A stretch of 64,000 bases of DNA from positions 1 to 64,000 of IMG/VR virus record IMGVR_UViG_3300026521_000471; one strand, written 5' to 3'. This DNA is from a virus. The notes under the pieces are model-generated. The model was not told where the DNA came from and ran no database searches. It was given only the letters and a program-made list of their open reading frames with translations. A program made the translations under genes and the position numbers. Positions within the stretch are counted from its first letter, which is position 1, and each line of letters starts with the position of its first letter. This document shows positions 1 through 47,023 of this stretch, piece after piece.

Positions 1-208
1 TGCTATCACACAAGCAGAGGAAAAAGTTAAAAATGAACTTTCAACAAAAGCTGATTTAGAAGCTGAAAAAGAAAGTCTTGAAAAAGTGCTTATGGAAGTA
101 ATGCAAAAACAAGCTCAAGCACAACAAGCGGATCAACAACCAAATGAAGCATCTGGATACGCTGAAAAGGTTGATGATTCAGATGTAATTGACGCTGAAA
201 TCGAGTAA
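1..208 (+). CDS. dnaK: DnaK (Hsp70), C-terminal end only
   Basis: The last 68 codons of a Hsp70 chaperone gene that begins upstream of the window. What is visible is the end of the helical lid, a Gln/Ala-rich flexible tail and the closing residues DVIDAEIE, the usual end of bacterial DnaK and close to the Campylobacterota form. DnaK binds and releases unfolded proteins in an ATP-driven cycle with GrpE and DnaJ, both of which are encoded directly downstream on the same strand. The ATPase and substrate-binding domains lie outside the window, so integrity cannot be checked. Identification rests on the tail plus the grpE/dnaJ context. Confidence 0.88.
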   Translation, partial: AITQAEEKVKNELSTKADLEAEKESLEKVLMEVMQKQAQAQQADQQPNEASGYAEKVDDSDVIDAEIE

Positions 209-210
209 AT

Positions 211-426
211 TTGAGCTATATCTATTTCAAAGATGGGAAACCTATTTCCCATCGTTCTGCTATAAAAATTCTATTTAATCCGTTGTTAAGAAGATTATTT
301 GGAATTGCTATAGCATCTGAAATAGATAATAATAGATTCAAAAGGTATAAGATTATAAAACAAAGTGAGCCAAAAGATTGGTCATTTAAAATACCTTTTG
401 AATATGATTACAGAATAAAACAATAA
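211..426 (+). CDS. small unknown protein between dnaK and grpE
   Basis: A 71-residue basic protein starting at TTG two bases after the dnaK stop, so probably translationally coupled to it. It contains an Arg/Lys-rich middle and aromatic C-terminus, with no recognisable domain or membrane segment. Its position inside the chaperone operon suggests co-expression with dnaK and grpE, but not a function. The TTG start is the only in-frame start near the beginning of the open frame. Confidence 0.6.
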   Translation: MSYIYFKDGKPISHRSAIKILFNPLLRRLFGIAIASEIDNNRFKRYKIIKQSEPKDWSFKIPFEYDYRIKQ

Positions 427-436
427 GGAGTTAGAA

Positions 437-949
437 ATGGCTACAAAAGTTCACGAAGATTTAACTGAAAATGAAAAATTAGATACAGTTGAAGTGGAAG
501 AAAGAGAGCAACCAGATGCCCCTGATGAAATTACAAAACTTAAAGATAAAGTTAAAGAGTTAGAAGATGAAAATCTAAGAACTCATGCTGAATTTCAGAA
601 TGTGAAGAAAAGACTTGAAAAAGAAAAGTTACAAGCTATCAAACATTCACATGAAAAGTTTTCATTGGATTTACTTGAAGTGTTAGATACTCTTTACTTA
701 GCAGAAACGGCTATTAAAGATGAAAAAGAAAAAGAAGGTATTTCTAATACAATTAAAAAATTAGAAACGGTTTTTAAAAAATATAATATTACAGAAACAC
801 TTTATGATATTTTTGATCCAAATGACCACCAAGCAATTCAAACAGTTGAATCTGATAAAGAAAGTGGTGAAATTGTAGAAGTACACCGTAAAGGTTATAA
901 AATCCATGATAAAATTTTAAGACCTGCTATGGTTTCTGTTGCGAGTTAA
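437..949 (+). CDS. grpE: GrpE nucleotide exchange factor
   Basis: A 170-residue GrpE, which releases ADP from DnaK so that the chaperone can rebind ATP. An acidic N-terminal tail is followed by a long coiled coil (about residues 30-75), a helical bundle, and the C-terminal beta domain that ends GYKIHDKILRPAMVSVAS, matching the family pattern GY-x3-D-x-(V/I)-LRPA-x-V-x-V. The motif DPNDHQAI agrees with the conserved P-x-x-H-x-A signature. Length is typical. The start follows AAGGAG by 5 bases. It lies between dnaK and dnaJ, as in host operons, but with extra small ORFs on each side. Confidence 0.95.
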   Translation: MATKVHEDLTENEKLDTVEVEEREQPDAPDEITKLKDKVKELEDENLRTHAEFQNVKKRLEKEKLQAIKHSHEKFSLDLLEVLDTLYLAETAIKDEKEKEGISNTIKKLETVFKKYNITETLYDIFDPNDHQAIQTVESDKESGEIVEVHRKGYKIHDKILRPAMVSVAS

Positions 950-959
950 GGAGATGATT

Positions 960-1154
960 ATGGAATTTGCTAAAAAGTTTAAGGAAAAGCTTAAAAAATA
1001 TGACGATTTAACCATGAAAGATAAGAAAAGTATTCTCCAATCTAATCTTGAAAAAGTTAAAGGGATTATAACTAGGTTAAAAACTAAAGAAGATAAATTC
1101 CAAAAATCACACCCTCAACATGATCCAAAATATAGTGGTTCTTGGGATTGGTAG
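960..1154 (+). CDS. small basic unknown protein between grpE and dnaJ
   Basis: A 64-residue lysine-rich, mostly helical protein ending SGSWDW. The ATG at 960 is chosen because it follows AAGGAG (948-953), which overlaps the grpE stop; an upstream GTG in the same frame has no ribosome site. No domain is recognised. It sits seven bases before dnaJ, so the five genes from dnaK to dnaJ form one transcription unit. Confidence 0.6.
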   Translation: MEFAKKFKEKLKKYDDLTMKDKKSILQSNLEKVKGIITRLKTKEDKFQKSHPQHDPKYSGSWDW

Positions 1155-1161
1155 GTAAAAT

Positions 1162-1980
1162 ATGAAAGAATTATATAAAACATTAGGTGTTCAGGAGAAT
1201 GCTACTGAACAAGAGATTAAGAAAGCATATAGAAAGTTAGCCAAACAGTATCATCCTGATAAGTGTAAAACTCCTGAGTGCGAGGAAAAGTTTAAAGAAA
1301 TCAACGCAGCTCATGAGGTTCTTTCTGATAAAGAAAAGAGAGCACAATACGATCGAGTAGGTGATGCTGCATTTGGACAGGGTGGCTTTCATCAGTATTC
1401 TCAACAGCATGCTGATGTAGACATTAGTGATATTCTTAATCAGATGTTTGGACAAGGTGGTTTTGGGAGAGGATTTAAGTCTTCATTTGATCCATTTGGA
1501 CAGGCAGGATTTAGTAACCGACCTATAAATTTAGATAGAGTTATTAGGGTTAGGATACCATTAGAGAAAGCTATCACAGGTGGTAAAATGAACATCGAAG
1601 GTGATACAGTTACTATCCCAAAAGGTGTTGGTCAGGGAACTAAATTAAGAGTTAAGGGGAAAGGTCATTCTCACGAAGGGAAAACTGGTGATTTGTACAT
1701 TCAGCTTGTAATTTCACCAGATATGAACTTTGATTTAGAGGGGAATACAATACATACTTCTTTAACTCTTAATATCAAAGAAGCAATCTTTGGGAGTTCT
1801 AAAGAAATTGATTTGTATGGTGAAAAGATAAAAATCAAGACCCCTAAAGATATTAAGTATGGACAACAACTTAGAGTAGCTGGAAAAGGCTTAAAAGGTG
1901 GAAACCTAATAGTACATGTAATTTATGAGTTACCTAAATCAACAGAAATTAAAGAATCTGATTTAAATTTTATAAAATAG
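1162..1980 (+). CDS. dnaJ: DnaJ/CbpA-type co-chaperone without zinc finger
   Basis: A 272-residue Hsp40. The J domain occupies residues 1-65 with the HPD motif at 31-33, which stimulates DnaK ATPase. A Gly/Phe-rich linker follows (about 70-120: [22 protein letters not shown]), then the two beta-barrel client-binding domains with the typical [18 protein letters not shown] and GDLYIQL stretches. The four CxxCxGxG zinc-binding repeats of classical DnaJ are absent, so this is a class II (CbpA-like) protein. A separate small protein with two CxxCxGxG repeats is encoded at 50429-50713. Last gene of the dnaK-grpE-dnaJ unit. Confidence 0.93.
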
Positions 1981-5031: not shown

Positions 5032-5241
5032 TTGACAAAGCAAGAAAAAGAGTTAGTGAAAAAAATTGAGGCTGTAATGGCTAGAAAAAAGATTGATGGA
5101 AATCCACAAGATTTTTATTCAGTTGAAAAAAAATCAACTAACAATTATGAAGGCACAGTTGAAGTCGGAAATATATTTATAATCGCAAAGGGTAAAGATA
5201 TTAAATCGACGATTAAACAGTTATCAAAAGAATTAAATTAG
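5032..5241 (+). CDS. small unknown protein
   Basis: A 69-residue lysine-rich protein starting at TTG after AGAGGAAAC, preceded by a class B promoter. A helical N-terminus is followed by a short beta-like stretch (GTVEVGNIFIIAKG). Not recognised. The next gene follows after nine bases. Confidence 0.65.
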   Translation: MTKQEKELVKKIEAVMARKKIDGNPQDFYSVEKKSTNNYEGTVEVGNIFIIAKGKDIKSTIKQLSKELN

Positions 5242-5250
5242 AAGGTAAGT

Positions 5251-6222
5251 ATGAATACTATCATAGAAACGATTTTAGAAGAAAGATACCCAGAATATAA
5301 AATGTTACCGATCATTGAAGATTTAGATATGGATAATCCACGAGAAGATTTCTGGGATAATCTATCTGAAAAAGAGGTTTATGATATTAATAAAGAATAC
5401 CTAGAAAAAATCGCTAATCCTAAATATGATTATCTTGTGTGTTGGGAACCTGGTAGATTAAATGAAGATGAAAAAATTACCGATTTTAACTCTCTTTATG
5501 AATTTGATTATAGCTGGTGGGATTATCAAAAGCAGGCTAGATATGATAGTGTTACAGAATATAAAGAATGGATGGAAAAGGGTAGCGAATATTGGACACC
5601 TGAAAGAGTAGCTACAACTATTAATGAATTAAATGCAGAATATGAAAATGGTTATTCAATTTATTGTACAGGAGATTGGATTCGTTTAATTGAATATGGT
5701 ATTTTTAGATACGCTCAAATTATCTCTGCTAAATGGTTTATATATTATCGTTTAGAATCTTTAATTTCAGATCTACAAGATAAATATTTGCCATATTCTC
5801 TTAATGAAGAAAAGATGGATTTTACCCAGCTTTTAAATGAACCAGATCCAACTAAGAAATATAAAGCGAACGGTAGAGAATTAGAATTAGAATCTTTACA
5901 AGAAAAAATTAGAGAATATGAGAGAAAACAATTAGGACGAATTATAGATAATGAGATGAAAAAATATAATTTTTCTGGTAAAGTATTTCGAGAAGATAAA
6001 GGTTACAATGAAGGAAAAGATTTTGATCCTTTTACAAGTTATATTTTTTGGGATGAAGAGTCATTAAAAAATATAAATCCTAAATCATTTGTTAAAGATA
6101 TTAATGCTAATTTGGAAGATATTGATAAATTAGAGTCTATTATAAAAGACTTAGAACATATAGTTGAAGATGATTTTATGAGATTTTATAATGCAAATAG
6201 AGATAGATACTTATCAAAATAA
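5251..6222 (+). CDS. unknown 323-residue acidic protein
   Basis: An acidic, Trp/Tyr-rich cytoplasmic protein. Its N-terminus contains a PExxI-like string (ERYPEYKM) near residue 13, at the beginning rather than the end of the protein. The last third is probably coiled coil. The start follows AGAAGG. No catalytic motif recognised. Confidence 0.75.
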   Translation: MNTIIETILEERYPEYKMLPIIEDLDMDNPREDFWDNLSEKEVYDINKEYLEKIANPKYDYLVCWEPGRLNEDEKITDFNSLYEFDYSWWDYQKQARYDSVTEYKEWMEKGSEYWTPERVATTINELNAEYENGYSIYCTGDWIRLIEYGIFRYAQIISAKWFIYYRLESLISDLQDKYLPYSLNEEKMDFTQLLNEPDPTKKYKANGRELELESLQEKIREYERKQLGRIIDNEMKKYNFSGKVFREDKGYNEGKDFDPFTSYIFWDEESLKNINPKSFVKDINANLEDIDKLESIIKDLEHIVEDDFMRFYNANRDRYLSK

Positions 6223-6574
6223 TAAATTATATTATGGTATGAAAGGTTCTGATCAACGTACTAGATTATTGGCATTTAGGCGACAAAAATTCATGAATAC
6301 ATTTCTAGATGATTACCCTGATATTTATTTAAAATTACAAACTAATGAACTTATGTTTCTAAAAATTATATATCAAATGAGAAAATTAAAATTTAATGAT
6401 ATGTCGAAGTTAGTATATTCAATGAATAGTAGTTATTTAGAAGTAGTGAATACTAAAGAGTTTAAACTTTTAATTAAAAGGTTTAAACATTACTTAAAAT
6501 ATGGTGAAAATACAAAAGAAGAGCTAAAAGAAGTTATGAGTATAAATTTTAGAGCTCTTCCATCATATTGGTAA
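6191..6574 (+). CDS. unknown basic protein overlapping the previous gene
   Basis: A 127-residue basic protein that begins inside the end of 5251-6222 (32-base overlap) if the ATG at 6191 is used; an ATG at 6239 would avoid the overlap but has no better ribosome site. It contains DDYPDIYLKL, an internal relative of the PExxI string. Converges on the minus-strand gene at 6576. Confidence 0.55.
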   Translation: MQIEIDTYQNNKLYYGMKGSDQRTRLLAFRRQKFMNTFLDDYPDIYLKLQTNELMFLKIIYQMRKLKFNDMSKLVYSMNSSYLEVVNTKEFKLLIKRFKHYLKYGENTKEELKEVMSINFRALPSYW

Positions 6575-7829: not shown

Positions 7830-8257
7830 GAGAATTTATACCATTTGTTAAAGATATTGAAAAAGGTGTAGATTATTTTTGGGTTAGTTTAAAAGATGGA
7901 TGTTTTTATAGAATTAGATTAAATTCACTTACTTCACAAGATAACTACGATATGAGAATAATCGAATTAATAGATATTGGATATTATACTGATAAACCTA
8001 TGGAAGAATTATTGAGTATAAAATCATTTCATAAAAATGAGTTACAAGTACATTATTCATATGATGATGCAAAATTAAATTATCTCCTTTATGCCATTAC
8101 TAATAATATACTATTTGAATTTGAAAAGATGATCGATATAAGTTTTGAGTTGTATGTTATACTAATAAAACGTCCGGAAGTCTATATAAAATATATCGAT
8201 AAACTGATGGTATCTAGTATTTTTAAAACTATGTTAGAAGGTAAGTTTAAGCGATAA
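7826..8257 (+). CDS. unknown 143-residue protein
   Basis: Starts in an ATGA overlap with the membrane protein before it. Probably soluble; contains KRPEVYIKYIDKL, an internal version of the PExxI string. Its 3' end overlaps the minus-strand gene 8247-8411 by 11 bases. Confidence 0.65.
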   Translation: MREFIPFVKDIEKGVDYFWVSLKDGCFYRIRLNSLTSQDNYDMRIIELIDIGYYTDKPMEELLSIKSFHKNELQVHYSYDDAKLNYLLYAITNNILFEFEKMIDISFELYVILIKRPEVYIKYIDKLMVSSIFKTMLEGKFKR

Positions 8258-8411
8258 GTGCTATATAAATAGCCAATAGTAATAAAGCTATACTGTTTAT
8301 ACTTAGAACCACAATTATTATTTTTATACTTTTTTCTAATTGTTCTGCTGTGCTAGTATCTATATTCATTTTTTCTAATTCATCCTTGATTCGTTGTTGT
8401 AATTGTGCCAT
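8247..8411 (-). CDS. small single-pass membrane protein
   Basis: A 54-residue protein starting at 8411 (MAQLQQRIKDELEKM) with a helical N-terminus and a C-terminal membrane segment made almost wholly of Ile, Leu, Val and Ala (about residues 29-53). A tail-anchored arrangement. The start is preceded by AAGGGT on the minus strand. It opens the minus-strand run as its most distal member. Function unknown. Confidence 0.6.
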   Translation of the reverse strand: MAQLQQRIKDELEKMNIDTSTAEQLEKSIKIIIVVLSINSIALLLLAIYIALIA

Positions 8412-15041: not shown

Positions 15042-16229
15042 TTATTTCTTTCTCAGTTTATTTTTTAATTCTTCTATTTGCTTAATTTTTTTCTCAGTAA
15101 TATCTTGTTTGATTGAAATATAACCAATCTTTACCCCATCTTTATCATAATATGGTGAAATCACATTATTTGACCAATAAGCACCACCATTTTTCTTTTT
15201 AGATTTAATTTCTCCTACCCAGTTTTTATCCGCTTCAATAGTTTCCCATAATTTCTTAAAAACATTTGCATTCATATCCGGATGTCTTATAATATTATGT
15301 GGTTCGCCTAATAATTCTGTTTTTGAATAGCCTGTTGTTTTACAAAAAGCTGATGATACATCTACAATTACTCCAAATAAATTCGTCTTGGTAAATATGA
15401 CATGTTTTTCAAAATCAGAATGCATACTAGTTAGTTGTGTATTAAGAATATCATTTTGTGTCATTAAGTCCGAAAAATCTTTGCTGTATTCATCGGCGAT
15501 TTTTTCATTTTCAAAATCAGCCCTTTCTTTTATTTTAATCATTGAATATATATAAATTATTCCAGAAATAAGCATGATCATAGAGACAATGAATAAAACA
15601 AATAACTGTAAATGTTTAATATTATCATTAATATCATTTATTGGTATCGTAGCTTCAGTAACCCCTCTAGCATCCCCTATTTTCCATTTAAAATCCCAAG
15701 TCTTTAACGGGTGGTGATTATGGCATTGGACACAAGATTTATTAGTCATATATTCGGTTTTCGCATACGTTAGATAATCTGTCCCGTCCTTTTCCGTTCT
15801 TAAAAATAGTTCCTTATGACCCTTTATATTTTTTAAGACCTTCAGCTGTAATTTTGTCAGAACTCTATCAGATTGATTTTTAAATGGAAAATTACTATAA
15901 ACAGATATACGTAAATTTGGATCGTCTATCATTGAAGCTACATCATGCATAAATGTTGCAGGATACGGTATTGTATTATTATCTTTATGTTCTGTACTAA
16001 ATTTTATACCATTAATATTATATATATCATCAACTACGTATTTGGCATAGTATTCTTTCGTTTTTAAAAGTAGATTTACTACTGATTTAGTTTTATCTTC
16101 TGCTAAATCAACTGCATATTCATGCATTTTATATGGAATAAAGACGTAAAGTGATATTAATGTAACAATATAAGATATAGTCACTCCAATTAAAAATTTA
16201 TTAGAAAACATTTGTAAAATATTTTTCAT
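15042..16229 (-). CDS. membrane sensor: Tll0287-like (DUF3365) haem domain plus PAS, no output domain
   Basis: A 395-residue protein. Membrane segment 1 spans residues 11-32 and segment 2 208-231; between them is a periplasmic domain with the c-type haem motif CVQCH (166-170) and GDARGVTEATIPI, the pattern of the Tll0287-like/DUF3365 family. A PAS domain follows (about 275-380) with IRHPDM and KNGGAYWSNN, the aerotaxis-receptor type common in Campylobacterota. No kinase, GGDEF or chemotaxis domain follows, so output must go through another protein. ATG at 16229 is chosen for its GAGGGA site; an earlier in-frame ATG would overlap the divergent gene. Probably acquired from the host. Confidence 0.85.
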   Translation of the reverse strand: MKNILQMFSNKFLIGVTISYIVTLISLYVFIPYKMHEYAVDLAEDKTKSVVNLLLKTKEYYAKYVVDDIYNINGIKFSTEHKDNNTIPYPATFMHDVASMIDDPNLRISVYSNFPFKNQSDRVLTKLQLKVLKNIKGHKELFLRTEKDGTDYLTYAKTEYMTNKSCVQCHNHHPLKTWDFKWKIGDARGVTEATIPINDINDNIKHLQLFVLFIVSMIMLISGIIYIYSMIKIKERADFENEKIADEYSKDFSDLMTQNDILNTQLTSMHSDFEKHVIFTKTNLFGVIVDVSSAFCKTTGYSKTELLGEPHNIIRHPDMNANVFKKLWETIEADKNWVGEIKSKKKNGGAYWSNNVISPYYDKDGVKIGYISIKQDITEKKIKQIEELKNKLRKK

Positions 16230-16292
16230 AAGTCCCTCAGTTTGTTGATTTATCAACTTATTTATTTTCGGATTTACTTTCTTTAATTTATG

Positions 16293-16315
16293 ATTAAGGT
16301 CTAATATAATATAAT
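16293..16315 (+). promoter_or_regulatory. class A promoter
   Basis: ATTAAG (16293-16298), 11-base gap, TATAAT (16310-16315), 22 bases before the ATG at 16338. Confidence 0.7.
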
Positions 16316-16337
16316 ATAAAAAATTAAAAAAGGATAT

Positions 16338-16736
16338 ATGATGCATATACGTAGTTTAGATTATTTTGATAAAGTGGGTCTGGTAACAAGCGGACTCTCT
16401 ATTTTTATTTCAAGTATTTTTTTACTTATGAGTTTTAGTTATTTAACAGAGAATTATTTAGTTATTTTAGGGTTGGTAAGTATTTCTTTAGTCCTAAATA
16501 ATTACTACCTTACCATAACTACACCAGAAATATTTAAAAAGATTAATGATGATCCCTGGAAATTTATTTTAGAACAAAGACCTATACTCGGACCTATTGC
16601 CGTTTTATTAAGTTTTTTATTAATAGGGACATTAATTAGTGGTAATCTTTTTGCATGGCAAATATATATTATATATTTTATTATGCTTATGCTTATGAAT
16701 CATACCTATTCAAAAAAATATAAACTTAGAGATTAG
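16338..16736 (+). CDS. predicted four-segment membrane protein
   Basis: A 132-residue hydrophobic protein with likely membrane segments at about 13-33, 37-58, 84-101 and 104-124 and a basic C-terminus (KKYKLRD), suggesting both ends in the cytoplasm. Start ATG at 16338 or 16341 after AAAAAGG. Lies divergent to the haem/PAS sensor. Family unknown. Confidence 0.7.
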   Translation: MMHIRSLDYFDKVGLVTSGLSIFISSIFLLMSFSYLTENYLVILGLVSISLVLNNYYLTITTPEIFKKINDDPWKFILEQRPILGPIAVLLSFLLIGTLISGNLFAWQIYIIYFIMLMLMNHTYSKKYKLRD

Positions 16737-26841: not shown

Positions 26842-28137
26842 GTGGAAAATATTGATATAGGTATTATTGATGTAGAATCTTTAAAAACCTTAAATAAAAT
26901 TTTAGAATCAAAAAAAGAATATATTATAAATTATTGGCTAGATGATGAAAAACTCAAGCCAATTTTTGAGATGTTGGAAATAGAAAAAGAAACATTTAAA
27001 AGCAAATACGCATATCATATTTTTCATCATTTTCAATCCATTGATTATGATAATATGTATTTTAAAACATATATCGATGAAATGGAAGACAAACAGCATT
27101 TAATAAAATATTTTTACCGATTAATCGCTCATCTAAAGAATAAGATTATATTATTTTTAATACAGTATAACATAGATAACAATGATAAAATATTTATGGA
27201 TGATTCACTGCTATATACGATTGATAATGCTATATCTGAATTATTAGATTCTATAACAAAACATCTTCAAAGAGATTATACTGCAAATACAAAAAAATTA
27301 AAGATATTAGAAAATGCTGCATTAGTTACTAGAACTGATAAAGACGGTAGCATATTATTTATGAGCCCACCATTATTAGAGTTACTAGGATATTCAGAAG
27401 AGGAAATGCTTGGAGCAGGTTTTAATAAAATCAGACATCCCAGAGTTTCTTCTAAATTTTATGAAAAACTATGGAGGACATTAAAATCTGGTAAACCTTT
27501 CAAAGGGACTATTAAAAATTTAACTAAGAATAGAAAAGAAGTAATATTTCATACACAAATTGTTCCTGATTTTAATTTTGATGGAGAAATAGTTGGTTAT
27601 ACAGCTATAAAAACAGATTTAACCGATAAAACAAGAGCAAGAACTGACACATTAACAGGTCTTTTAAATCGTTCAGCATTTAATGATCGATTATCTGAAC
27701 TTATAGATAGATATAACAATTTTCATATTCCAGTTTCTTTAATAATGATTGATATTGATTATTTTAGTGAAGTAAATAATAACTACGGTCATATTACTGG
27801 TGATAAAACTCTAAAACATTTTGTTAAACTAATTAAAGAGATAATTAGACCTACTGATACATTTGCAAGATGGGGAGGGGAAGAATTTATTATAATTCAA
27901 AATAATACATTAGATAATTCTATTAAAACTGCTGAAAGAATAAGAAAACATATAGCAGAAAGCACGTTCCCAGAAGTAGGACAAAAAACATGTAGTCTAG
28001 GTGTGGCAGAATTTAATAATAGTTATGCAGATATAGATTCATTTATAAATGAACTTGATAAAGCATTATATTATTCAAAAGAACATGGACGTAATAAGGT
28101 CTCATACGTAGTTAAAAATGGTATAGAATCTGTTTAA
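26842..28137 (+). CDS. diguanylate cyclase: helical sensor, PAS and GGDEF
   Basis: A 431-residue signalling protein starting at GTG after AAAAAGGG. Residues 1-150 are a helical sensor region. A PAS domain (about 158-262) carries IRHPRVSSKFYEKLW. The GGDEF domain (about 268-425) has DTLTGLLNR, IDIDYF, GGEEF at 345-349, and RPTD at 336-339, the RxxD inhibitory site exactly five residues before GGEEF. The usual FKxxND is FSEVNN here. It should make cyclic-di-GMP from two GTP and be product-inhibited. Rare in phages and probably host-derived; it could alter motility or attachment of the infected cell. Confidence 0.9.
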   Translation: MENIDIGIIDVESLKTLNKILESKKEYIINYWLDDEKLKPIFEMLEIEKETFKSKYAYHIFHHFQSIDYDNMYFKTYIDEMEDKQHLIKYFYRLIAHLKNKIILFLIQYNIDNNDKIFMDDSLLYTIDNAISELLDSITKHLQRDYTANTKKLKILENAALVTRTDKDGSILFMSPPLLELLGYSEEEMLGAGFNKIRHPRVSSKFYEKLWRTLKSGKPFKGTIKNLTKNRKEVIFHTQIVPDFNFDGEIVGYTAIKTDLTDKTRARTDTLTGLLNRSAFNDRLSELIDRYNNFHIPVSLIMIDIDYFSEVNNNYGHITGDKTLKHFVKLIKEIIRPTDTFARWGGEEFIIIQNNTLDNSIKTAERIRKHIAESTFPEVGQKTCSLGVAEFNNSYADIDSFINELDKALYYSKEHGRNKVSYVVKNGIESV

Positions 28138-39469: not shown

Positions 39470-39654
39470 TTGTAGATGTAGATAAAAAGGCAATCCAACA
39501 ACAAATAAAGTTTTTAGTTAAAATAATAAACCAATATCAAAAAAGATTAGAAACTGAACCTCAATTTTTAACTAGAGAAGTTGAAGAAAATTTAGAAAGA
39601 GCTAAAGCAAAATATGATTATATTATTAAAGAATATCCAGACTTAATCATCTAG
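39466..39654 (+). CDS. small protein with C-terminal PExxI-type tail (YPDLII)
   Basis: A 62-residue, single long-helix protein ending KEYPDLII, with Asp in place of Glu. Starts in an ATGA overlap and its end overlaps the convergent HDOD gene by 12 bases. Function unknown. Confidence 0.65.
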   Translation: MIVDVDKKAIQQQIKFLVKIINQYQKRLETEPQFLTREVEENLERAKAKYDYIIKEYPDLII

Positions 39655-41301
39655 ACTATTTTTTAAATCTAATATATTACCGAATGATTTTTTATGAGTT
39701 ATTTGAGCAAAAATATTTTTCATATCATTACCTGAAAGATGACCTCGTTCTGCTTCTCTCATTAAATTTTTTGTTATTTTAAACTCGCCATTATATTTAA
39801 ATAATTCAAATGCTAAATTTATAATATGACCTTGTATTTGTAACGTATTAGAAGCACTAGCATATCCAAATTCTCTGGCTACTGCAATAATTTTTTTCAT
39901 GTTTTGTGGCATATTCCAAATACTAAAAAGCTTCTCAACAGCGTGTAAATTATTAAATCCTAATAGATTCATTTCTAAACTAGTTATAGATTTTGACGAT
40001 TTTTGTAAATTTTTAAAACGATCTACTCTCTCATTAATAATTAAAGCCTGATTTGTCAGGAGCATACCTAGTGGTAATATATGCATAACAGCAGTTAAAT
40101 CATCTTTATCATCTTGGGGTATATCTATAAATTTAATCCATTCTGAAACAAATTTAACTCGGTATTTTGAAACTTCAATTAACTCTTCTAATGAAATATC
40201 ATATGCGTCTAAATATAAACTGTCAAATGTTTCGTTAGCTACCTCTGTTATTGCTAATGCCCCTATTTGTTTTTTACCTAGTAATGATACAGCAATAGAG
40301 ATTTTTGATACTCGATTTGGTAGGCCTATATACGGGGAATTAATTTCCCGTAAAATAATTGCTGAGAACATTGGATCTTGTTCAACAACTTTTACTATTT
40401 GGTTGATATTTGAATTGCTATCAAAACACAATTCTTTTAACTTAGTTAATGTACTAGGTAAAGGTTCAATTGCTTCAGCTAGTTCAACTAATGTAATCTG
40501 CCCTTTATTAATAGGTATTTCAATCTCCGTATTACTACGTTCATATTTTTTAACAATCATAGTCTTAAAATCAGCCATTTTCATATTATGTGTATTATAA
40601 ACATTTTCGATTGCTAATTTTTCTTTAACTAAGTTTAAAGAACTTTCTTTACTGAATTTACTCAAAACATATAAATTTTCAAAATCGAATTCAATATCAT
40701 TTAAACAAACTATGAGATCTATGATATGCCCATCGGGGTATTTTAAATCAGTTATTAAAATTTTTTTACCGGGCATTTTTATAAGGTCAATTGCCTCGGA
40801 TTTAGTAGAAACACTATCCACAAATTTAAATTTTGTACTAAGAATTTCTGTTAATAATTTTGATACTTTTGGATCTCGATTAAGGATCACAATATCATAA
40901 TATTCATTAAGTTTTGGGGAAGTGTAATTTTTACATTGAACGATTGGCGCAGTATCAAATTCAATAGCATAAAATTCTGGATCTTCATGTTGTTGAATTT
41001 GAGTTACCCACCTTTCAATTTGAATAGAAAAGTTTTCAAACCAATTAATCACATCTTGATTAAAAGCACAAGTATAATTTTTTATAAAAAACAAAATATC
41101 TTCTGTTTTTTCAAGGAGAATAGAAATTTCTTCAAATTTATGATAGTAAGTAATAGCTTTTAATGAATGTATCGACCTAAATAATGTGTCGATCAATTTT
41201 GATGAATTAATTTCATCATTTCTAAAATCAATAATAGTGTTATTAATAATTATAGACAAATTATCTAATCTTATAATATAATCTTCAAGTTCTTCAGTCA
41301 T
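39643..41301 (-). CDS. signalling protein: Hpt, degenerate receiver and HDOD domains
   Basis: A 552-residue protein. Residues 1-105 form an Hpt-like helical bundle with FRSIHSLKAI (His-45 as candidate phosphate carrier). Residues about 133-255 resemble a response-regulator receiver: the phosphate acceptor would be Asp-185 in LITDLKYPDG, but the acidic pocket is NRD and the conserved Lys context is weak. An HDOD domain (about 268-470) follows, with LPSTLTKLKEL and EQDPMFSAIILREINSPYIG. HDOD proteins regulate motility and cyclic-di-GMP-linked processes in many bacteria. Unusual for a phage; probably host-derived. Confidence 0.85.
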   Translation of the reverse strand: MTEELEDYIIRLDNLSIIINNTIIDFRNDEINSSKLIDTLFRSIHSLKAITYYHKFEEISILLEKTEDILFFIKNYTCAFNQDVINWFENFSIQIERWVTQIQQHEDPEFYAIEFDTAPIVQCKNYTSPKLNEYYDIVILNRDPKVSKLLTEILSTKFKFVDSVSTKSEAIDLIKMPGKKILITDLKYPDGHIIDLIVCLNDIEFDFENLYVLSKFSKESSLNLVKEKLAIENVYNTHNMKMADFKTMIVKKYERSNTEIEIPINKGQITLVELAEAIEPLPSTLTKLKELCFDSNSNINQIVKVVEQDPMFSAIILREINSPYIGLPNRVSKISIAVSLLGKKQIGALAITEVANETFDSLYLDAYDISLEELIEVSKYRVKFVSEWIKFIDIPQDDKDDLTAVMHILPLGMLLTNQALIINERVDRFKNLQKSSKSITSLEMNLLGFNNLHAVEKLFSIWNMPQNMKKIIAVAREFGYASASNTLQIQGHIINLAFELFKYNGEFKITKNLMREAERGHLSGNDMKNIFAQITHKKSFGNILDLKNSLDD

Positions 41302-42109: not shown

Positions 42110-43682
42110 ATGGCAAAAGAGAAATTTGTTAGGGGTGAAAAACCTCATGTTAATGTGGGAACAGTAGGGCATAGACTATGTGCCATCTCTTGGTAACAAG
42201 GGATTAAAAAGAGTTTAAATTGTCTGGAAACCCCTAAAGCTTCTTTTACTAAAACAGAGCCAGAAATGGCATATGGTATAGTTAATGAAAATTAGAAAGA
42301 AAAAAGAAGATGGAATATGTGGAAACGCTAAGTTCTTTATAATGGGCAATCAGCAGCCAAGTTACCTAACTCAAATATATTGAGATTTCTATGTGAATAG
42401 AATTTAAGGTAGAAGGTTCAGAGACTGTAATAACTCAGTCCGTTAATCTTAATTGAATTTCGGATTATGGTACAGTCCAGACTACAACAACTTTACTTAG
42501 TTAGTTGGCTTATGAAAGTAAGTGTAGTAATTGGTAGATCATGGCAAGACTACTTTAACTGCAGCAATTACAGCAGTAATGGCAGTTAAAAACGGTGCAG
42601 CATTTATGGATTACGATCAAATCGATAATGCACCAGAAGAAAGAGAAAGAGGTATCACTATTGCTACTTCTCATGTTGAATATGAAACTGATAAAAGACA
42701 TTATGCTCATGTTGATTGTCCAGGTCACGCAGATTATGTTAAAAATATGATTACTGGTGCTGCACAAATGGATGGTGCTATTCTTGTTATTGCTGCTACT
42801 GATGGACCTATGGCTCAAACGAGAGAACATATCCTTCTTTCAAAACAAGTTGGTGTACCAGCAATTGTTGTTTTTATGAACAAAGAGGACCAACTTGATG
42901 ATGAAGATAAAGATGAAATGGCTGAACTTGTAGAAATGGAGATTAGAGAACTTCTTGACCAATACGGTTTTGATGGTGATAACACTCCTGTTATTCTTGG
43001 TAGTGCATTTCAAGCTCTTGAAGAAGCAAAAACCGGTACTTTAGGTGAGTGGTCAGAAAAGATTGTACAACTTATGGATTCAGTAGATGAGTGGATTCCA
43101 GAACCAGTTAGAGATACTGATAAGGATTTCTTAATGCCTATTGAAGATGTATTCTCAATTGCAGGTAGAGGTACAGTTGTTACTGGTAAAATTGAGAGAG
43201 GTACAATCAAACTTGGTGAAACAGTAGAAATTGTAGGTATTAAAGACACTCAAACATCAACTGTTACAGGAATTGAGATGTTCCGTAAAGAGATGGAAGA
43301 AGGTTTAGCTGGGGATAATGCAGGTATTCTTCTAAGAGGAATTTCAAAAGATGATGTTGAAAGAGGTCAAGTTCTTTGTAAACCTGGTTCAATAACACCA
43401 CATACAAAGTTCAAAGCGGAAGTTTATGTTCTAAGTAAAGATGAGGGTGGTCGTCATACTCCATTCTTTAATAATTATAGACCTCAGTTCTATTTCTATA
43501 CATCTGATATTACTGGTGCAATTACACTAGAAGAAGGTGTTGAAATGGCTATGCCTGGTGATAATGTGACTATTACGGTAGAACTTATTGCTCCAATGGC
43601 TATCGAAAAAGGAACAACTTTTGCTATTAGAGAAGGTGGTAGAACTGTCGGCTCTGGTATGATTGGAGAAATTATCGAGTAA
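42110..43682 (+). CDS. tuf: elongation factor Tu, interrupted by a group I intron
   Basis: Exons 42110-42172 and 42534-43682 join to a 403-residue EF-Tu, the GTPase that brings aminoacyl-tRNA to the ribosome. Splicing restores GTVGHVDHGKTT (G1). Other motifs are intact: RGITIATSH (G2 region), DCPGHADYV (G3), NKED (G4) and GSAF (G5); domains 2 and 3 follow to [14 protein letters not shown]. The form [16 protein letters not shown] is that of Campylobacterota. Without splicing, translation stops soon after codon 21. Base composition is richer in G+C than the neighbours, in keeping with a host origin or codon selection. It could replace host EF-Tu under stress or defence attack. Confidence 0.95.
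42173..42533 (+). ncRNA. group I intron in the P-loop codons of tuf
   Basis: 361 bases, no ORF. The exon ends GGCAT; GGCAU pairs with GUGCC in the intron, placing U-G at the 5' splice site (P1). CUAU just before it can pair with the first exon-2 bases GUAG (P10). The core shares long strings with the polymerase intron. P7 pairs GACTGT with ACAGTC, whereas the other intron has GACTAT with ATAGTC: a paired substitution that supports the helix. The intron ends in G, and exon 2 continues in frame as VDHGKT. Confidence 0.92.
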
Positions 43683-45832: not shown

Positions 45833-47023
45833 TTGAAATTTCATCGTAATTACAAATTCAGATTACAACCAAATACTGAACAATCCGATTTCCTTAATCA
45901 TTATTTCTTTACTGCAAATCAAGCCTGGAACTTTGCTTTGAATTTAAAAATCAAAGACCTTTCTGTCAATTCTTCTCTGCCGAAGGCAGATAGGAAATAC
46001 TTAAAGTTCAAAGATATTTATTCTCTTACAAAAGAACACCTTAAAGAACGAGGAATTAAATACAATTCAGGTGTAATTCAAGATGAACTAAGAAAATTAG
46101 ATGATACGTTTTCTCGATTCCATAAGAAAATTGGTGGATTTCCTAAATTCAAGTCCTCAAAGAAAATCGAACAATCAATCATCATCAGGAATCAAGCAAC
46201 TTATTGGGATGAAATGGAATTGGAGATCTTCAGAAAGAAAATCAGAACTAAATTCCATCGAGAAATTCCTTTGGAATCTAAATTTACTGGTGGTATTGTA
46301 AAAAGAGAGTCAGATGGAAACTATTATTTTATTGCTAATTTGATCATTAATGATAAAAATCAATATCCAAAAACAGGAACAGAATGTGCTCTTGATTTGA
46401 ATGTAGAAAATATAGCTATTTCAGATTCAAATGGAAATCGAAGATTGATTAAATTGGAGGATTTTTCAAAAAGTAAATATTCAAAGAACTTTTTAAAGTT
46501 ACAAAGAAAACTTTCAAAAAGATACAAAGAAAAGAACTTTTCTAAAAATACCAAACGATTACAAAAGAAATCAAATCGAATGTACAAGAAAATCAAAAAC
46601 AAAAAAGAGGATTTTTTTCACAAGCTCAGTAATGAGCTGACTAATCAATATGATAGAATCACAATAGAAGATCTGGAAATCAAAAAGATGAAAGAATCGA
46701 AATCAAATCGACTCAATCGTCTGATTTCAGATGTAAGTTGGGGTTCGTTGATACAAAAAATCAAATATAAACAAGAACAAAAGAACAAATTGATTAGAGA
46801 ATTAAATCCAGCTTTTAGCAGTCAGAGATGCTTCAAATGTGGTCATATCAGTAAGAACAATAGAAAAACGCAAAGCGTTTTTAATTGTGAAAACTGTGGA
46901 TACACTACTCATGCAGACCTGAATGCTTCAGATAATCTCTTAGATTATGATAATTGGTCTCTGGAACAGATGACCTTGATCCAGCAATGGAATCAGAATC
47001 TTTGTATCGAGAATGTCAGTTAA
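45833..47023 (+). CDS. tnpB: TnpB (IS200/IS605-type RNA-guided nuclease)
   Basis: A 396-residue TnpB, ancestor-type relative of Cas12. The RuvC-like catalytic residues are Asp-188 (CALDLNVENIAI), Glu-279 (ITIEDL) and Asp-362 (HADLNASDN). The zinc finger has CFKC (333-336) and CENC (352-355). The N-terminal OB-like part opens MKFHRNYKFRLQPN, as is normal. Length is typical and no residue is missing, so it should be active. Starts at TTG after AGGAGG. No tnpA transposase gene lies next to it, so movement would need help in trans or rely on DNA cutting and repair. Confidence 0.93.
   Translation: MKFHRNYKFRLQPNTEQSDFLNHYFFTANQAWNFALNLKIKDLSVNSSLPKADRKYLKFKDIYSLTKEHLKERGIKYNSGVIQDELRKLDDTFSRFHKKIGGFPKFKSSKKIEQSIIIRNQATYWDEMELEIFRKKIRTKFHREIPLESKFTGGIVKRESDGNYYFIANLIINDKNQYPKTGTECALDLNVENIAISDSNGNRRLIKLEDFSKSKYSKNFLKLQRKLSKRYKEKNFSKNTKRLQKKSNRMYKKIKNKKEDFFHKLSNELTNQYDRITIEDLEIKKMKESKSNRLNRLISDVSWGSLIQKIKYKQEQKNKLIRELNPAFSSQRCFKCGHISKNNRKTQSVFNCENCGYTTHADLNASDNLLDYDNWSLEQMTLIQQWNQNLCIENVS

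Follow-up and report, generated by a model that had tools for sequence, protein, structure and literature searches.

The probable 3′ part of a compact phage Hsp70 operon of Campylobacterota ancestry

Main

Phages lambda and P1 are the textbook users of host DnaK, DnaJ and GrpE, and most chaperone-carrying phages encode one co-factor and borrow the host DnaK. What does a cluster of Hsp70 genes at the very start of a viral contig represent, and what would such genes do for a phage? The window (the whole stretch of DNA analysed, 64,000 nucleotides) comprises bases 1–64000 of a 224,467-bp IMG/VR record (IMGVR_UViG_3300026521_000471), classed as linear, a class that is often a fragment. A preliminary description of it reported dnaK, grpE and dnaJ together, as a complete Hsp70 triad in host-like order with extra small open reading frames (ORFs) between the genes.

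The chaperone locus

The locus is laid out as follows.

2–208, + strand: last 68 residues of DnaK (Hsp70), the gene continuing beyond the contig start; 79% identical to the end of the DnaK of a related contig, L013
211–426, + strand: doubtful 71-residue ORF with a TTG start; no family; no homologue in L013 or in a second related contig, L014
437–949, + strand: grpE, nucleotide exchange factor, 170 residues (PF01025, E = 9e-41)
960–1154, + strand: gene for a small protein of 64 residues, between grpE and dnaJ; Shine–Dalgarno sequence AAGGAG at 948
1162–1980, + strand: class-B (CbpA-type) J-protein, 272 residues (PF00226, 2.7e-28; PF01556, 1.8e-24)

The grpE and J-protein genes are intact, whereas dnaK is represented by its last 68 residues only. 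No profile recognises the 2–208 stretch, and its identity rests on alignment to phage and host DnaK ends: it ends in DDSDVIDAEIE, has the same DSDVIDAEIE end as the 614-residue spliced DnaK of L013, and terminates in the VIDAEIE common to phage and host DnaKs. Neither a second Hsp70 match nor a 5′ part of dnaK was found anywhere in the 224-kb record. The window dnaK stops at the contig end, and nothing shows the gene itself to be broken. Because it is cut at base 1 and there is no other Hsp70 match, a complete triad is seen in relatives only, two of which have the whole locus.

The PF01025 match spans residues 19–169 of GrpE, a full-length domain, and the protein matches solved GrpE structures, aligning with those of E. 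coli and Geobacillus; it is 94% identical to the L013 protein and 72–73% to that of L014. The J-protein has an intact HPD motif, a G/F-like region and two C-terminal β-domains and lacks a zinc finger (PF00684, the mark of a class A DnaJ, gave no match at E up to 10), and is thus class B. Its nearest solved structures are those of Thermus DnaJ2. The locus is like that of Thermus thermophilus in this class-B protein and in gene order (dnaK–grpE–dnaJ, the order of the Thermus operon) but differs in sequence ancestry, which is Campylobacterota. As for small ORFs between the genes, that at 960–1154 holds up, with its Shine–Dalgarno sequence and an L013 homologue (8253–8405) that keeps the C-terminal KSHPQHxPKxxGxWDW, although L014 lacks it; that at 211–426 is unsupported. 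The 960–1154 ORF was also considered as a DafA-like factor and rejected; it has no PDB match and thus no link to Thermus DafA.

Related phage contigs

L013 (IMG/VR 3300026512_000571, 9.7 kb) carries hsp20, dnaK, grpE, a small ORF and dnaJ. L014 (G001; 3300026484_000351, 96.8 kb) carries hsp20, an unbroken dnaK of 619 residues, grpE and dnaJ; genes for terminase and a neck protein lie on this contig too. In a third contig, L163 (G104; 3300028534_000019, 100.9 kb), dnaK is directly followed by dnaJ, ~5 kb downstream of the terminase gene, and GrpE was not found in the 100.9-kb fragment; the full set is therefore dispensable in at least one relative. Protein identity across the separate phage contigs is 61–94%.

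In L013, a 1,307-nt group I intron (5223–6529) splits dnaK after codon 223; it carries a GIY-YIG endonuclease ORF with matches to PF01541 and SegE, and splicing it out in silico restores the 614-residue DnaK. Rfam at the gathering score returned no introns, and a permissive search returned group I introns in L013 dnaK (RF00028, E = 4.5e-7 and 1.4e-4, both short of that score) and in the window EF-Tu gene. The phosphate-binding ATPase motifs, the linker DVLLLDVT and the substrate-binding domain of DnaK are intact in L014, L013 (spliced) and L163. The phage DnaKs have GGKD where hosts have GGDD, and a lid ~7 residues shorter.

G104 has a second, divergent Hsp70 gene (70934–72796; L170 10934–12796), directly after the tmRNA gene, whose product is 38% identical to the phage DnaK; this phage therefore has two Hsp70s. 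The L013 contig also lies inside JAMOPB010000327.1 (L082), from a metagenome-assembled genome labelled Candidatus Cloacimonadota, and is identical where compared, probably a binning error.

Gene order and ancestry

The gene order is not host-like. In the 40-odd loci of Campylobacterota compared, grpE lies upstream of dnaK, and neither a CbpA-type dnaJ nor hspR is close by; hspR is absent from all 53 host dnaK loci, and cbpA adjoins hspR in 30 of 30 Campylobacterota genomes. Because the phage ‘dnaJ’ is of CbpA type and hosts hold grpE–dnaK and cbpA–hspR apart, the phage dnaK–grpE–dnaJ operon is a new assembly of two separate host loci.

A link to Campylobacterota is borne out by maximum-likelihood trees (quick search, SH-aLRT support without bootstrap). 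In these, the phage DnaKs fall into a single clade within Campylobacterota, beside Nautiliaceae; the DnaK of Lak-A1 and those of other huge phages branch elsewhere. The three phage J-proteins cluster with Campylobacterota CbpA (SH-aLRT 95) and not with the J-proteins of other phages. GrpE is closest to that of Arcobacteraceae, in a tree with long branches. Campylobacterota ancestry of the phage Hsp70 genes is thus supported.

The pairing of cbpA with hspR also bears on a quite different role, in which the J-protein or DnaK would induce host heat-shock genes by titrating the heat-shock machinery of the host: a phage CbpA could disturb HspR control, and Rki of phage RB43 acts in this manner on E. 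coli DnaK (PMC3486835). Rki, however, is no general co-chaperone, whereas the window J-protein has the full CbpA architecture, and the phage supplies DnaK and GrpE too rather than a lone J-protein. We consider such a takeover improbable.

Selection and transcription

The chaperone genes are under purifying selection, with dN/dS (Nei–Gojobori) of about 0.1–0.15: between the window and L013, 0.12 for GrpE and 0.12 for the DnaK tail; between L013 and L014, 0.15 for DnaK; and 0.08 for the J-domain. The J-protein is a mosaic: its first 85 residues are nearly the same in the window and L013, and synonymous sites are saturated in its C-terminal half, as if its client-binding domains had been exchanged. 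With the J-domain near-identical and the C-terminal half divergent, client binding may change fast and need not be fixed on virion proteins.

Fast divergence confined to the C-terminal half would also fit a contest over changing clients, in which the phage J-protein or DnaK misleads or bypasses defence proteins that sense or need host DnaJ or DnaK. bNACHT25 requires host DnaJ for detection of a phage coat protein (PMC12169576), and the moraphage authors put forward this idea for phage heat-shock proteins (PMC12619734). A decoy would have no need, however, of GrpE, Hsp20 or a catalytically intact DnaK, and we regard counter-defence as unlikely.

A TTAAGT-N-TATAAT element, presumably a Campylobacter-type promoter motif, lies upstream of hsp20 in both L013 and L014. 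It occurs in 16 of 294 upstream regions of the window record, against a shuffled mean of 3.1 (maximum 7), and in none of the coding sequence. Its position before hsp20 and its enrichment upstream of genes point to transcription of the operon by the host polymerase. As this promoter appears to be of host type and is possibly early, a purely late role in virion folding is less favoured. A T4-like late promoter, TATAAATA, precedes the operon in L013 only; genome-wide its 30 occurrences barely exceed those in shuffled sequence (mean 17.7, maximum 28).

Phage nature of the record

The record is phage DNA, from a large virus of Campylobacterota bacteria. It encodes matches to RIIB (E = 1.2e-80) and an endolysin (E = 1.6e-34), PhoH, DnaB, nrdB and homing endonuclease genes, and 22 tRNA genes at ~67.8–83.8 kb. 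Terminase, neck-protein and gp6-like baseplate genes are found on the related contigs, and 23 and 12 proteins are common to the window record and related contigs by BLAST; on the 224,467-bp window record itself no virion structural gene was recognised. Searches of that record for terminase (PF03237), T4-type capsid (PF07068) and tail sheath (PF04984) returned none, the capsid search being weak as the PF07068 control matched nowhere. The predicted structure of one product tried as a virion protein (L005:4984–7131) had a pLDDT of 36.

This lack of a recognised terminase, T4-type capsid or tail-sheath gene is what would be expected if the chaperone genes were chance host cargo, or the contig host DNA miscalled as viral. 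Against this stand a gene order unlike any host locus, phage-only clades, low dN/dS, the 61–94% identity between separate phage contigs, and RIIB, endolysin and other phage-type genes on the window contig. A host chromosome, which would have undone the preliminary description, is ruled out by the gene order, the clades, RIIB and the endolysin, and passing cargo or misassembly is largely refuted and highly improbable.

Another gene of the record, a Rep3-family initiator at 204069–204524 (E = 1.5e-15; a replication initiation PHROG), raises the prospect that the chaperones remodel a phage initiator at replication start-up. Chaperone-dependent initiators are established: host DnaK, DnaJ and GrpE act in this way on P1 RepA, F RepE and lambda P. 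Rep3 is, however, absent from the related contigs G001 and G002 and from six of the seven DnaK-encoding huge or Lak phages, within the limits that fragments set to this search, and W03 gave only a sub-threshold match containing stops. Start-up of replication, missing its Rep3 in related contigs, therefore leaves the shared operon unexplained, and we think it very improbable. A general link to Rep3 was rejected, the strong match being confined to the window contig.

The record has further gene sets of its own. Six phrog_10773 paralogues lie at contig 97868–129322 (L005 17868 to L007 9322); in Xanthomonas phage X1, a relative carries the annotation queuine tRNA-ribosyltransferase. This one phage possibly has many DpdA/TGT-like enzymes. 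Large ORFs of L008–L012 contain an RNA-repair-like set of domains (Hen1 N-terminal, PNKP ligase, RNA ligase, TROVE/Ro and Thg1). Signalling genes of PAS/Tll0287, GGDEF, HDOD, chemoreceptor-like and GGDEF/EAL types are located at window 15042–16346, 26842–28137 and 39643–41301, L004 15026–17212 and L008 11851–14028. A TnpB/IS605 OrfB-type gene lies at window 45833–47023.

Wider protein quality control

A phage EF-Tu, noted in the preliminary description, is present outside the chaperone operon.

42110–43682, + strand: EF-Tu gene (PF00009, 6.8e-56), associated with the chaperone operon
42110–42172, + strand: exon 1
42173–42533, + strand: group I intron
42534–43682, + strand: exon 2

The intron is 361 nt long, has no ORF and splits the GTP-binding motif (GH|VDHGKT). 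Its RF00028 match (E = 6.7e-5) falls short of the gathering score, and the spliced reading restores GHVDHGKTT. EF-Tu matches in annotated phage records seem, as judged by eye, to be mostly host sequence.

The same record carries a GroEL gene (contig 121726–123351; L007 1726–3351; phrog_5725, E = 8.8e-145) that adjoins a NADAR-domain gene, a tmRNA on the minus strand (contig 181437–181818; L010 1437–1818) with the tag ANTKLYIPQTARVAA (ARAGORN), and an SmpB gene (L009 3031–3480). G104 likewise has a tmRNA, with the tag ANNTDYTGNTVLSA, and an SmpB homologue. A MoxR-like ATPase and a metallopeptidase–vWA protein are common to all three phages and match a pair described previously (PMC7824862). With GroEL, tmRNA, SmpB and EF-Tu on the window record, protein production and quality control is therefore a general theme. 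Conceivably, though with rather low likelihood, these genes may form a near-complete phage proteostasis network, combining trans-translation (tmRNA, SmpB and EF-Tu) with folding (Hsp20, DnaK/GrpE/J-protein and GroEL), in which proteins bearing the phage tmRNA tag would take another route than those bearing the host one. If so, the infected cell would run on phage-controlled protein quality control.

Proposed role

Folding support for phage proteins is the most economical role for the chaperone genes. The window probably holds the 3′ portion of an Hsp70 operon that belongs to the phage, was captured from Campylobacterota and is kept by purifying selection as a self-sufficient folding machine for phage proteins. 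The sequences show which genes are present and that they are intact in relatives, along with their ancestry, the selection on them, the catalytic motifs and a promoter-like element; expression of the operon, its working as a set and the identity of its clients are inferred. During infection, host RNA polymerase would read the operon from the host-type sigma70 promoter. The phage J-protein would bring clients to the phage DnaK and trigger ATP hydrolysis, phage GrpE would release ADP from DnaK, and Hsp20 would keep unfolding proteins for DnaK/GrpE/J-protein. Such a cycle would run regardless of how abundant host DnaK is or which side it serves, and its clients would be the phage's own abundant or hard-to-fold proteins.

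Relation to known systems

Among annotated phage records, Lak megaphages and several huge phages encode DnaK; five of the seven checked also encode GrpE, and all seven a J-domain protein. The Prevotella phages Lak-A1 and Lak-B4 encode DnaK, GrpE and a J-domain protein, as the window group does, but grpE of Lak-B4 lies ~20 kb from its dnaK–dnaJ pair and that of Lak-A1 farther from its own, whereas the window group is compact; the Lak-A1 DnaK falls outside Campylobacterota and was therefore acquired independently. The huge phages LR756502, LR745206 and LR756504 also have all three genes, but with dnaK ~10 kb or more from grpE and dnaJ and a DnaK of different ancestry. The word ‘unusual’ in the preliminary description holds for the compact operon; all three genes together, at separate positions, already occur in Lak phages and further huge phages.

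Huge phages are already known to encode EF-Tu, tmRNA and SmpB (PMC7162821); the main text of that 2020 paper uses none of the words chaperone, DnaK and GrpE. In 2021, a survey covering 224 jumbo phages found J-proteins only, with recruitment of host Hsp70 as their predicted role (PMC7824862). Lone phage J-proteins such as RB43 Rki (PMC3486835, PMC7824862) share the J-domain protein with the window group but recruit or hijack host DnaK, whereas the window group brings DnaK and GrpE along. In the available text on the moraphages (2025, PMC12619734), phage DnaK, DnaJ and Hsp20 are of host origin, as here, but the genes derive from Flavobacteriales, GrpE is unmentioned in the main text and no operon is described; the window group is of Campylobacterota origin and has GrpE. 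In the literature searched, a compact hsp20–dnaK–grpE–cbpA operon of Campylobacterota origin appears to be undescribed.

In this phage group the whole Hsp70 cycle is phage-owned, in one compact operon put together from two host loci, which suggests selection for a matched, self-sufficient set. It also suggests that, during infection, host DnaK is in short supply, acts against the phage or is under surveillance.
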